The position numbers were made by a program, and so were the translations under genes. This document shows positions 9,044 through 37,299 of a stretch of DNA of 39,644 nucleotides, piece after piece. The notes beneath the pieces were generated by a model. That model was not told where the DNA came from. It ran no database searches and saw only the letters and a program-made list of their open reading frames with translations. Every line of letters starts with the position of its first letter. The first letter of the stretch is position 1. The stretch is from Candidatus Methanoperedens nitratireducens (lineage in GTDB: Archaea; Halobacteriota; Methanosarcinia; Methanosarcinales; Methanoperedenaceae): positions 1-39,644 of the forward strand of contig NZ_FZMP01000046.1 of the NCBI RefSeq assembly GCF_900196725.1. The letters run 5' to 3'.

Positions 9044-10143
9044 TCCCTGTATTTCATGGCACGCAGCACCCTTTGCTTTGCAATTCTGACCGCAGCTTCC
9101 CTGGGGTATGTTTTTTCGTTTTTTACCGCATCCAGTATCTCTTTTGTGTTCCTTGTAATAGTGCTTTTGATCCTTTCGAATGCCTGCGTCTCAGTCCCGC
9201 CGTGATACTCAACCGACGCTGTGATCACCCCGCCCGCATTAGCCACGAAATCCGGGATTACCAGGATTCCCCTCTCATGCAGCATCCTTTCTGCAGTTTC
9301 ACTGATTGGTATATTTGCACCTTCGATTATCAATTTTGCATCTACCACATCAGCATTGGCATCCGTTACTACATCAGGTCGTGCAGCAGGGACGAAAATA
9401 TCGGTTTTTATCATTAGCAGGTCGGTACTTTTCAGGACCTGACCGTCTTTATAATTTATCACCGAGCCTGTGGTATCTTTGATCCGTATCAGCTCCTCTA
9501 CATTCAGACCTGCCGGATTGTAGATTGTACCTTTTGAATCACTTGTAGCTATCAGCTTAACCCCCCTCTCTGCAAGAAACCGTGCAGTAGGTCTCCCTAC
9601 GTTCCCGAATCCTTCAATCGTCAGGCTTGCGCCGTTCATGTCCAGGGGAACATAATCCTTTGCTACCTCTGTGCATACCGCTACTCCATATGCAGTAGCC
9701 CCGATCTCATCAAGCGGGATTCCGCCAAGCTCAAGCGGCAGCCCTACGGCGCGTGATGTCTCGTCATAGATATATGCCATATCGCTCTCATCTGTGCCCA
9801 TATCAGGTCCGGGTATGTATTCTTCCAGGCTTTTTATCGCCCTGGCGAATGTCCTGATGACATGCTCCTTGTTAACGGTTTTCGGGTCTGCTATGATCCC
9901 CGATTTCCCTCCGCCGTGAGGAAGACCTGCCATTACATTTTTGTATGTCATCGCGCGGGCAAGCCTCCTGACCTCGGTAGCGGTCACATCAGGCGCCATC
10001 CGCACCCCGCCGATAGCAGGTCCGGCAGCCACGTTATCCACAACGACGATAGCTTTCATCTGCGTCCTGGGCTCGTACAAAAAAACAACCCTCTCAGGAC
10101 CGATTTCATCTGCCAGCTTGAATACATTTTCTGTGATATCCAT
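9034..10143 (-). CDS. Glu/Leu/Phe/Val dehydrogenase family amino-acid dehydrogenase
   Basis: NAD(P)-dependent oxidative deamination of an amino acid to a 2-oxoacid and ammonium, or the reverse. The 369-residue length and the N-terminal segment AAGPAIGGVRM resemble leucine/valine dehydrogenases more than the longer glutamate dehydrogenases. The two lysines of the active site are at residues 68 (MTYKNV) and 80 (LPHGGGKSGI), the numbering known for leucine dehydrogenase, and an Asp lies in GPDMGTDESDM. The nucleotide-binding motif GFGNVG, however, is glutamate-dehydrogenase-like, so substrate is open. It has ATG with GGGAG upstream and is first in an operon with the acyl-CoA synthetase genes. 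No 2-oxoacid:ferredoxin oxidoreductase, the missing middle step, lies nearby. Confidence 0.85.
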   Translation of the reverse strand: MDITENVFKLADEIGPERVVFLYEPRTQMKAIVVVDNVAAGPAIGGVRMAPDVTATEVRRLARAMTYKNVMAGLPHGGGKSGIIADPKTVNKEHVIRTFARAIKSLEEYIPGPDMGTDESDMAYIYDETSRAVGLPLELGGIPLDEIGATAYGVAVCTEVAKDYVPLDMNGASLTIEGFGNVGRPTARFLAERGVKLIATSDSKGTIYNPAGLNVEELIRIKDTTGSVINYKDGQVLKSTDLLMIKTDIFVPAARPDVVTDANADVVDAKLIIEGANIPISETAERMLHERGILVIPDFVANAGGVITASVEYHGGTETQAFERIKSTITRNTKEILDAVKNEKTYPREAAVRIAKQRVLRAMKYREWM

Positions 10144-31862: not shown

Positions 31863-32528
31863 ATGATATCTATCGGCGTTATTACAAGAGGAAAATACGG
31901 GCTGCGCCTCATCGGGAACATTAAAAAGAATCCGGAGTTCGGTGTTTCTTCGATCAAGCTTCCGGAATCGCTTCCGGATTTCATCGAAGAACCCGGCGAT
32001 TTTATGGACACCCTGAATCTTGATAAAAGCGTATTCTCAAGCGATCTTGTCATAGCCTACACGCTGCATCCCGATCTTACGCCGGAAATCGTCCGCATCG
32101 CCGGGGAGAACGGCGCAAAAGCCGTAATTATCGCAGGCGGCATATCGAGGGCAGGCGGGCAATCCATATTATCAGATCTGTCGGAAAAATATAATATTCA
32201 TATCGAAGTCCATGAGATATGCTGCAATATAAAAAAACACGGCAGTAATGTCGTGGATGAGTTTGCATCATGTTTCGGGAGACCGGAGGTAAAAATAACC
32301 ACAAAAGGCGGCATCATCTTAAATGTAGAGGTAGTCCGCGGCGCACCATGTGGAAGTACATGGCATATGGCAAAAGCTCTTGAGGGAACAAGCGCAAAAG
32401 ATGCACCTGCAAAAGCAGGGCTGCTGGTGCAGCAATACCCGTGCAGGGCTCTCCGGGGCATCAAAGGCGGAATACATAAAGCAGCGGAGTTGCATAAAGA
32501 GGCGGTAGAAAAGGCTTTGGAGGAGTAG
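31863..32528 (+). CDS. DUF166 family protein
   Basis: A 221-residue cytoplasmic protein of the DUF166 family, often mislabelled as thymidylate synthase. It is found mainly in methanogens and some anaerobic bacteria; its function is not established. Visible features are an N-terminal IGVITRGKYGLRLIGNI, a central LVIAYTLHPDLTPEIVRIAG and GAKAVIIAGG, and several conserved-looking cysteines (EICCNIKKHG; VVRGAPCGSTWHMAKAL; QYPCRALRG) that could bind a metal or iron-sulfur cluster. It starts the operon with malic enzyme and rhomboid protease, three bases before the former. Expression may begin close to the ATG. Confidence 0.85.
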   Translation: MISIGVITRGKYGLRLIGNIKKNPEFGVSSIKLPESLPDFIEEPGDFMDTLNLDKSVFSSDLVIAYTLHPDLTPEIVRIAGENGAKAVIIAGGISRAGGQSILSDLSEKYNIHIEVHEICCNIKKHGSNVVDEFASCFGRPEVKITTKGGIILNVEVVRGAPCGSTWHMAKALEGTSAKDAPAKAGLLVQQYPCRALRGIKGGIHKAAELHKEAVEKALEE

Positions 32529-34363: not shown

Positions 34364-34430
34364 TCCGCAGCCTGCACAAATATACTGTCTAAATAAATTG
34401 AAATCTTTTAATGCCATTAAAATTTTTTAA

Positions 34431-34448
34431 ACCGTTTGAAATATATAT
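34431..34448 (+). promoter_or_regulatory. Promoter element of the H-NOX gene, shared with cooS
   Basis: ACCGTTTGAAATATATAT includes a TATA-like AAATATAT, centred about 50 bases before the ATG at 34495, so the leader would be about 25 bases and contains AAGGAGAC. The first 16 bases recur exactly before cooS at 35184-35199. An inverted repeat TTTTAATGCCATTAAAA (34406-34422) lies just upstream and could bind a regulator. The TATA part alone could be chance; the shared ACCGTTTG is the unusual piece. Confidence 0.65.
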
Positions 34449-34494
34449 TTGTGTATTTTGTATAATAGTGCCAATAAATTAAGGAGACATAATA

Positions 34495-35019
34495 ATGAAG
34501 GGCGCTATAGTACAATGTTTAGGTGATTTGGTAAAGAACAGTTTTGGAAACGATAAATGGGAAGATTCCCTCGATAAAGCCGGAATGAGCAGGAAGGCTT
34601 TCTTCATGCCCCTGCAGAACATTGAAGACGATAAAGTATTAAAACTCATAGAATCGTCATGCAAGGTGCTGAATATTACCCCTGCCCAGGCAGCAGATGC
34701 CTTTGGGGATTACTGGGTTAATGTCTATGCCCCGAAAATATACGGTGCCTATTACAAAGGACCGAGTTCTGCAAAGGAATTCCTCAAGAAGATGGATGAG
34801 GTTCACGCTAACGTAACAGCGAATATACCAAATGCCCATCCACCCAGATTCGAATATGAATGGAAAAATGAAAAGACCTTGATCATGAGATACAGATCCA
34901 ACAGGGGATTAATAGATGTCCTTGTCGGGCTTATAAAAGGCGTTGGCAAATACTTTAAAGAAGACCTAAAGGTAACAAAGCTGGGAAGCGATAAAGTACA
35001 GGTTATTTTCTCAAAATAA
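34495..35019 (+). CDS. Stand-alone H-NOX (heme-nitric oxide/oxygen binding) protein
   Basis: A 174-residue heme sensor of gases. It opens with MKGAIVQCLGDLVKNSFGND, the H-NOX start. The proximal heme ligand is His104 in MDEVHANV, the YxSxR propionate-binding motif is YRSNR (Tyr133, Ser135, Arg137) and the distal-side proline is in HPPRF. Aligned by eye with the Caldanaerobacter (Thermoanaerobacter) tengcongensis protein, the distal Tyr140 that binds O2 is replaced by Val142, predicting NO rather than O2 binding. No output domain is fused, and no kinase, cyclase or chemoreceptor gene is adjacent. AAGGAGAC precedes the ATG and a hairpin follows the stop. The next gene is cooS with the same promoter element. 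Confidence 0.93.
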   Translation: MKGAIVQCLGDLVKNSFGNDKWEDSLDKAGMSRKAFFMPLQNIEDDKVLKLIESSCKVLNITPAQAADAFGDYWVNVYAPKIYGAYYKGPSSAKEFLKKMDEVHANVTANIPNAHPPRFEYEWKNEKTLIMRYRSNRGLIDVLVGLIKGVGKYFKEDLKVTKLGSDKVQVIFSK

Positions 35020-35053: not shown

Positions 35054-35183
35054 TCTGCCTGCACTTGAACCTGCGTAGCCATAGATTAAAAACGGATGTA
35101 GCGGCAGGCTTATCTTTTTGTTTCAAACAGGTTGAAAAGTTTTAATGGTTTTATAATTTTTAAACATCTTTGCAATTTTCTAC

Positions 35184-35199
35184 ACCGTTTGAAATATAT
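35184..35199 (+). promoter_or_regulatory. Promoter element of cooS, shared with H-NOX
   Basis: ACCGTTTGAAATATAT is identical over 16 bases to the element before the H-NOX gene, 73 bases before the cooS ATG (64 for H-NOX). The TATA-like AAATATAT gives an expected leader of about 35-40 bases holding AGGAGGT. A related GTTTCAAAC palindrome lies about 65 bases further upstream (35120-35128) next to TTTTAATGG, echoing the inverted repeat before H-NOX. Confidence 0.65.
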
Positions 35200-35256
35200 G
35201 CGGTAGTTGTAATACCTGTCTTAAACAGAAATCCAGTCTGTCAGGAGGTATGATCA

Positions 35257-37299
35257 ATGGTTGATAAAGATTGGATACCAAAAGAAAAAACCCGGTCAAC
35301 AGAAGATGAAGAGCCTTTTGTGGGACGGGTACCTGAAAAAGATATACCGGGTTCAAGACGCGTCCTTGACCGTGAAACCTCTGAAATGGTAAAACACGCC
35401 GAGAGCCTTGGCATTGATACTGTTTTCCAGAGACAGTCAAAGTTCAGCGGCTCATCCGTTTGCATTGATAAAAGATGCATTTTCGGGTCGCAGGGTCTAT
35501 GTTGCAAGCAGTGCGCCATGGGCCCTTGCAGGATACGGCAGGATGACCTGTCAAAGCCCTATAAGATAAACAAAGGAACATGCGGTGCAGGCGCAGATAC
35601 CATAGCTGCCAGGAATTTGCTTATGATGGTAGCCAGAGGTACTGCGGCTCATGCTTCCCACGCAAAGCATGTGGCTCTGATGCTCCTTAAAACCGCGCAG
35701 CACAAGACACCATATAGTATAAAGGACATCCAAAAACTGAAAGCGATATCCTCAAGAATAAATCTCAACGGGGAAAACTCCATTGAAGGGATTGCAAATA
35801 ATGTAGGCCAGAGCGCGCTTCTGGATATCCTGGGAAACGAGGATTATATGAGATTTGCGATGTCATACTGTCCTCTGGATAGAACTCTTTTCGACCTTGG
35901 TGTTATCCCGAAATCGGTAGGGCATGAACTGCTGGAGGAAGGGCACGAGACCTCGATGGGTACAATGGCTGACCCCACATCTCTTATTTTGCATGCTGTC
36001 AGACTGGGTCTTGCTGATATCACATCACTCGTAATAAGTTCAGAGCTTCAGGATGTGGTATTCGGCGTACCGAAGCCCGTCATCTCAAAAATAGAGATCA
36101 ATGTGCTTGAGGAGAAAAAAGTGAACGTGGTCATACACGGGCATATCCAGCTCCTCTCTGAAAAGATCGTTGAACTCTCCGAAGATGAGGAGCTTCTGGA
36201 TAAAGCCAGGCGTGCAGGGGCGCAGGGTATTAACATCGTAGGCTGCTGCTGTTCGGGGAACGATATGCTGGTAAGGCACGGCATCCCGCTGGCAGGCGGC
36301 AACCTTGAGCAAGAACTGATTATCACGACGGGGCTCGTAGAGGCATTCGTCATGGATGTGCAGTGTATATTCCCCAACGTACAGAACGTTGCCTGGAAAT
36401 TCCATACAAAGCTCATATCCACCATGAAAGAAGGAAGGTTCACGAACGCCGAGCATATACCATTCGAGGAAGAACGCGCTGATGAGATAGCAAGAAGGAT
36501 CCTTGAATCTGCGATAGAGAACTTCCCGAACAGGGGCAGGGATATCTTCCTGCCTGATGTGGAACCAAGGGAACTGATGGCAGGCTTCTCTGCCGAAGGA
36601 TGTTTTGATGCACTTTCAAGGTTGAATCCCGGCAATCCGCTTAAACCGCTGATCGACAGCATCACTGCAGGGGATATCTACGGGATCGTCCTGTTTTCCG
36701 GATGTACCAGCCCGAAAGCCAGCGCGAACCATGCGATAATAGCAAAAGAGTTACTTTCGCATAACGTGCTCATCGTAGCCACAGGCTGCGCTGCTCAGGC
36801 ATGTGCAAGGGAAGGGCTTTTAGCGACAGATGCAGCCGAAAAATATGCAGGCGCCGGGTTAAAGAAATTCCTTACAGTGCTCGGTGAAGCCTCAGGTATT
36901 GACGGGGCGCTTCCCCCGGTATGGCATTTCGGAAGCTGCGTGGATAATGCGCGTGTGATTATCCTGATCTCAGCGCTGGCTGAGAAACTCGGGGTCCGTA
37001 TAAAAGACCTGCCTTTTGCCGCCTCAGCCGCAGAATGGGTGACAGAAAAAGCCGCTGCAATAGGGACCGGGGCTGTAGCGCTCGGTATTACGGTTCACCT
37101 GGGTGTGGCGCCCCCCGTACTCGGAAGCCGGGCTGTGGTCTCCCTGCTTACACAGAAAGCTGAGGAACTCTTCGGAGCGAAGTTCATCGTAGAACTTGAC
37201 CCGAACAAGGCATCCATGGTACTGCTGGACCATATAGAAGAGGCACGAGAGAATCTCGGCATTGAGTCAAAGGGAAAGGTTATTCCTCTCTCATGCTGA
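35257..37299 (+). CDS. cooS: Anaerobic Ni-Fe carbon monoxide dehydrogenase catalytic subunit (CooS type)
   Basis: Oxidises CO to CO2 or the reverse. The 680-residue homodimer-type subunit has all cluster ligands: the D-cluster pair Cys74 and Cys82, B-cluster Cys83, Cys86, Cys91 and Cys109, and C-cluster residues in GHIQLLSE (His near 293), VGCCCSGND (near 329), VQCIFPN (near 369), FSGCTSPKAS (near 482), TGCAAQACA (near 511) and FGSCVDNAR (near 562). Their spacing matches structurally known CooS. No cooF ferredoxin, cooC nickel-insertion ATPase or acetyl-CoA synthase gene is adjacent, so electron partner and maturation come from elsewhere. ATG 35257 follows AGGAGGT; an ATG at 35250 is out of frame. 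Confidence 0.96.
   Translation: MVDKDWIPKEKTRSTEDEEPFVGRVPEKDIPGSRRVLDRETSEMVKHAESLGIDTVFQRQSKFSGSSVCIDKRCIFGSQGLCCKQCAMGPCRIRQDDLSKPYKINKGTCGAGADTIAARNLLMMVARGTAAHASHAKHVALMLLKTAQHKTPYSIKDIQKLKAISSRINLNGENSIEGIANNVGQSALLDILGNEDYMRFAMSYCPLDRTLFDLGVIPKSVGHELLEEGHETSMGTMADPTSLILHAVRLGLADITSLVISSELQDVVFGVPKPVISKIEINVLEEKKVNVVIHGHIQLLSEKIVELSEDEELLDKARRAGAQGINIVGCCCSGNDMLVRHGIPLAGGNLEQELIITTGLVEAFVMDVQCIFPNVQNVAWKFHTKLISTMKEGRFTNAEHIPFEEERADEIARRILESAIENFPNRGRDIFLPDVEPRELMAGFSAEGCFDALSRLNPGNPLKPLIDSITAGDIYGIVLFSGCTSPKASANHAIIAKELLSHNVLIVATGCAAQACAREGLLATDAAEKYAGAGLKKFLTVLGEASGIDGALPPVWHFGSCVDNARVIILISALAEKLGVRIKDLPFAASAAEWVTEKAAAIGTGAVALGITVHLGVAPPVLGSRAVVSLLTQKAEELFGAKFIVELDPNKASMVLLDHIEEARENLGIESKGKVIPLSC

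Follow-up and report, generated by a model that had tools for sequence, protein, structure and literature searches.

Haem gas sensors encoded beside genes for carbon monoxide dehydrogenase (CODH) are familiar from the coo operons, in which CooA and RcoM play this part. Two described H-NOX proteins are the closest points of comparison for a sensor of another fold. Alr2278 of Nostoc sp. is a stand-alone protein that binds NO and CO, and the H-NOX domain of the obligate anaerobe Thermoanaerobacter tengcongensis (Caldanaerobacter) binds O2 and is fused to a chemoreceptor (MCP). In both respects, the latter follows the usual rule for H-NOX domains from obligate anaerobes (PMC8738867). No paper mentioning H-NOX together with carbon monoxide dehydrogenase came up in a literature search, most subscription papers lying outside its reach. 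Here, we analysed a stretch of 39,644 nucleotides from Candidatus Methanoperedens nitratireducens (the window), in which a stand-alone H-NOX gene directly precedes a gene for the Ni-CO dehydrogenase CooS. On balance, we favour the reading that the H-NOX and a divergent type of CooS of Methanoperedenaceae belong to a single co-regulated unit for gas responses, which is probably NO-responsive and acts on CooS or on a FilR1-type regulator.

The H-NOX gene (34495..35019, forward strand) encodes 174 residues that match PF07700 (HNOB) with 145.8 bits (E 1.4e-42; cut-off 25.5), residues 2-161 covering the profile over its full length (positions 1-162), and it is the sole HNOB match across the 3.52-Mb window genome. 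A Pfam search detected no second domain in the 174 residues, hence neither an MCP fusion nor a DNA-binding domain. The proximal haem ligand is His104, and the YxSxR propionate motif reads YRSNR (133-137). The closest solved structures are those of Alr2278 (E 4e-24), and the HMMER alignment to this protein independently matches the haem His and the YxSxR motif. The 76 H-NOX relatives compared show no substitution at Trp74, His104, Pro117, Tyr133, Ser135 or Arg137, and 75 of them have Phe, Ile, Leu or Val at position 142. In an alignment, Val142 occupies the position of the distal Tyr140 of T. tengcongensis. By every sequence criterion that we applied, the ORF is a true H-NOX, and it is predicted to load haem. 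The initial annotation, which had proposed an archaeal stand-alone H-NOX with His104 and YRSNR intact and the distal Tyr replaced by Val142, is borne out on all three points. The single relative with a Tyr at the Val142 position is a cooS-linked H-NOX from Desulfuromonadales (L194:8001-8516), whose ligand may differ. An AlphaFold model built with 13 sequences was set aside (mean pLDDT 63, pTM 0.49).

The window protein thus resembles Alr2278 in fold family, length, haem His, YxSxR motif, Trp74 and the missing distal Tyr, but its host is an archaeon, and the gene linked to it is cooS, not one for a kinase, a cyclase or another signalling protein. With the T. tengcongensis protein it shares an H-NOX domain in an obligate anaerobe, but neither the distal Tyr nor the fused chemoreceptor, and judged from its sequence it does not fit the O2-binding, MCP-fused rule. 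CooA and RcoM are alike only in the layout of a haem gas sensor gene beside a CODH gene; their folds are unrelated and they carry their own DNA-binding domains. Because the distal Tyr is absent, O2 is an unlikely ligand, the sequence leaving NO and CO unseparated.

The partner gene cooS (35257..37299, forward strand) starts 237 bases past the H-NOX stop codon and encodes a monofunctional Ni-CO dehydrogenase of 680 residues and of the divergent type, scoring 605.6 bits against TIGR01702 (cut-off 478). Alignment to solved CODHs indicates that all cluster ligands are kept, namely the cysteines of the B, C and D clusters and the C-cluster histidine, as are the catalytic Lys and His stretches. The monofunctional CooS proteins of Ca. 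Methanoperedens BLZ2 belong to the same enzyme family, the H-NOX-linked copy being of the divergent type. On a CooS tree, every H-NOX-linked copy falls on one side, that of the divergent type, and none of the 30 main-type rows is H-NOX-linked; the divergent subclades of the family correspond to the two gene orders described below. A second divergent cooS, not accompanied by H-NOX, adjoins an amino-acid-kinase family gene (carbamate-kinase-like; L238:5213-6154).

Whether H-NOX and cooS keep company in related archaea was a question raised by the initial annotation, and the link proved to be conserved. Close relatives of the window genome (G000) carry the names Ca. Methanoperedens or Methanoperedenaceae (ANME-2d) and include BLZ2 (G017) and METP1 (G003). 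With the window genome counted, H-NOX was present in 13 genomes when 150 relatives were searched, all of them Methanoperedenaceae, and cooS is adjacent to it in nine of the 13. The two genes are directly adjacent on the same strand with H-NOX first in five genomes (G000, G005, G007, G010 and G032) and with cooS first in two (G020 and G021). The cooS-first order is also found in BLZ2 and METP1, where both genes lie at or near contig ends and the H-NOX and cooS contigs have exact overlaps of 54 and 141 bases, respectively; one extra ORF separates the genes in METP1. No cooS was found near H-NOX in G008, G019 and G033, in which H-NOX lies inside long contigs, nor beside it in G006, whose contig ends there. 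The other flanking genes vary from rhomboid and malic enzyme genes to a FilR1 regulator with a UbiA-like gene or a HisA-like gene with a flavin reductase gene. As these genes differ from lineage to lineage, the linked cooS has no constant neighbour other than H-NOX. Among the 24 Methanoperedens genomes searched for both genes, divergent CooS occurs in 11 of 11 H-NOX-positive versus three of 13 H-NOX-negative genomes (Fisher p=1.5e-4, kinship ignored). Two details of these loci may be recorded here. The H-NOX gene of G010 has a frameshift close to its start, in a poly-A run (L025, about 9900-9915), which is probably an assembly error, and in the window a DUF166 protein related to the selenoprotein family DfsP (NF041372, below cut-off) is encoded at 31863-32528, upstream of the malic enzyme and rhomboid genes.

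Further evidence for the pairing, which was not part of the initial annotation, comes from a shared promoter element. The H-NOX element (34377..34449, forward strand) consists of tandem imperfect palindromes of ~19 bp (GTTNNAAATTTNNAAC-like) followed by a BRE/TATA-like core, and the cooS element (35125..35201, forward strand) has the same architecture. The terminal part of this longer palindrome element is an exact 16-mer, ACCGTTTGAAATATAT, which occurs exactly twice in the 3.5-Mb window genome: at 34431-34446, 64 bases before the H-NOX start, and at 35184-35199, 73 bases before the cooS start. With E<1e-5 as the limit, a sequence-only profile made from nine H-NOX/cooS promoters of five genomes gave about nine sites in the window genome, two from the training set and seven outside it with E between 1e-11 and 3e-6. 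Most element sites end roughly 20-130 bases upstream of a same-strand ORF. Chance promoter similarity was rejected on account of this placement and the seven non-training matches. Three 16-mer matches with two mismatches (L063-L065), which do not have the repeat architecture, were treated as chance. At least one element site is present in 12 of 34 family genomes, and genomes with two or more sites comprise seven with H-NOX and two without (G011 and G028). The profile search did not find the element in the cooS-first group (G003, G017, G020 and G021), so that joint control by the element covers only part of the family. In six loci (L014-L017, L021 and L022), mostly of genomes that do not have the main element, a stretch upstream of H-NOX is rich in GATAATNATNAT and looks like a Fur/DtxR box.

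Among the genes that follow the element are those for FilR1-type regulators, a small HTH_45 regulator and secreted S8 proteases as well as UbiA-like genes, and chemoreceptors lie on the other strand at element sites; some of the element-preceded genes (secreted proteases, UbiA-like and others) have no obvious link to a gas. Orthologues of one FilR1-type regulator (C130) have an element within about 3 kb in five genomes (G000, G005, G024, G028 and G030). For G024 and G030, no further element was found in the genome. A second kind of FilR1-type regulator (C241) adjoins the element together with a UbiA-like gene in G000, G005 and G007. In G010 and G032, H-NOX itself has a divergently oriented FilR1-type regulator gene next to it. 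FilR1 of Methanosaeta harundinacea binds its own promoter in autoregulation (PMC3991700). The Methanoperedens protein shares with it the wHTH and FilR1-middle domains, but not a match to its C-terminal receiver domain. Proximity to the element thus makes a FilR1-type regulator the best candidate, and most likely the protein that binds it. The 79-residue HTH_45 protein was considered as well and rejected, since its distribution fits worse than that of FilR1, even though its own gene carries the element. In two Methanoperedenaceae, a regulator with an ArsR-type HTH and a V4R domain (MsvR-like) is encoded directly upstream of H-NOX (L021:10263-11009 and L022:4960-5700); V4R and HNOB are related domains according to a published comparison (PMC5847659).

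According to our preferred reading, H-NOX would act as a soluble haem protein that binds NO, or less likely CO, at His104 and changes its shape on binding. NO at the ferrous haem would weaken or break the bond to His104 and the domain would rotate, as is general for H-NOX proteins (PMC8738867). In the lineage of the window, one type of operator-promoter would switch both genes, most likely bound by the FilR1-type winged-helix regulator. The cytosolic partner to which H-NOX would then report gas exposure would be CooS itself or the regulator, and the output or activity of CooS would be adjusted when NO is present. Since H-NOX would be produced along with CooS, a role as accompanying reporter or modulator is more likely for it than one as a permanent upstream switch. 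A bolder version, which we put forward only tentatively, is that the metabolic Ni-Fe enzyme is the direct output of H-NOX: NO-bound H-NOX might touch CooS and gate or shield CO oxidation, so that its output would differ from the kinases, cyclases and chemoreceptors, an arrangement that would have been assembled independently in archaea and several bacterial phyla.

The partner being a CO dehydrogenase, and an H-NOX haem that has no distal Tyr being able to bind CO, the protein could instead detect CO and govern the linked CooS, like bacterial CooA or RcoM. Ca. M. BLZ2 uses CO, and most of its cooS transcripts rise with CO (PMC13079737, 2026), which would suit such a sensor. However, CooS_3 and CooS_5 of BLZ2, which are divergent and belong to another structural group, are hardly expressed under CH4 or CO (PMC13079737). 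The BLZ2 assembly contains five cooS genes, two of the divergent type, one of which is joined to H-NOX; by elimination, not by locus tag, the H-NOX-linked cooS is therefore CooS_3 or CooS_5. The low expression of these two genes under CO weighs against CO as the inducer and points towards NO or another signal, and a CO sensor seems unlikely to us, NO or nitrosative stress being the probable candidate for the trigger of the unit. The main text of the BLZ2 study mentions neither heme-NO-binding proteins beside any cooS nor nitric oxide (PMC13079737). We did not use nitrate reduction as an argument for NO because narG has no clear tie to H-NOX: a NarG profile run over the family found full narG only in G003 and G017, with weak fragmentary matches elsewhere.

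That H-NOX and cooS have promoters of one kind would also suit a guard protein, which takes up NO locally and protects the Ni-Fe cluster without any signalling. In keeping with this idea, no HK, DGC or PDE gene lies directly beside H-NOX in the window or the family loci, and no kinase, cyclase or HNOBA partner was found, the HNOBA search of the window genome giving zero matches with its control likewise silent. Known H-NOX proteins, however, are sensors with protein partners, the signalling-fold residues are fully conserved in the 76 relatives, and relatives in ANME-1 and bacteria are encoded near chemotaxis or two-component genes. The last point comes from a scan with the family H-NOX alignment against one genome per species, which returned 75 H-NOX loci, many in anaerobic lineages; being based on patterns of this subfamily, the scan does not cover H-NOX as a whole. 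ANME-1 H-NOX genes of this subfamily are placed among CheA, CheB, CheW and CheX-like genes, and these chemotaxis clusters are a second archaeal H-NOX output; close stand-alone H-NOX genes were seen in such clusters of ANME-1 archaea and relatives at L175, L176, L179, L180, L182 and L184. Response-regulator-type genes adjoin H-NOX in many bacterial relatives. The ANME-1 clusters and these bacterial neighbours indicate that the subfamily has several outputs, and an NO trap without signalling is in our judgement improbable. The initial annotation had stated that no kinase, cyclase or receptor partner is adjacent. This holds for the window but not for its close relatives, given the ANME-1 chemotaxis clusters, the bacterial response regulators and the DNA-binding regulator beside H-NOX in some Methanoperedenaceae.

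The same scan revealed cooS beside H-NOX in five bacterial genomes, from Nitrospirota, Desulfuromonadales and Myxococcota. The Nitrospirota pairs comprise two divergent and one same-strand arrangement, the Desulfuromonadales pair is divergent, and the two genes of the Myxococcota pair are 1.3 kb apart. The CooS proteins of these pairs are 36-44% identical to that of the window. By a rough estimate assuming one or two cooS per genome, ~0.1 such bacterial pairs would be expected by chance among 64 loci. On a quick H-NOX tree, with L194 and L200 as long branches, the cooS label needs seven changes, at least four of which are forced by well-supported branches. The association with cooS, whose conservation the initial annotation had made a test of its proposal, has held across archaea and bacteria. 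One Nitrospirae CooS beside H-NOX (L183:3108-5270) has a Tat-like leader (INRRKFLTIAGAAGF), which is odd for a Ni-CODH. Spread of the gene pair by lateral transfer without functional coupling would agree with the patchy, laterally moved distribution of both genes and with their separation in three family members, but is very improbable in view of the two gene orders in the family, the occurrence of divergent as well as same-strand pairs in bacteria whose CooS is distant, the forced tree changes (at least four), the co-occurrence (p=1.5e-4) and the shared rare promoter element.

The pairing of H-NOX with a divergent CooS points to a new use of a well-known family of nitric-oxide sensors. It departs from the textbook split, in which the H-NOX proteins of obligate anaerobes are O2-binding chemoreceptors, and suggests that an H-NOX may also have an enzyme for a partner. 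Methanoperedens, which is exposed to CO as well as nitrogen oxides, curbs the release of methane. For the two BLZ2 CODHs that have no known trigger, the pairing offers candidates for the sensor, the signal (NO), the operator and the regulator.
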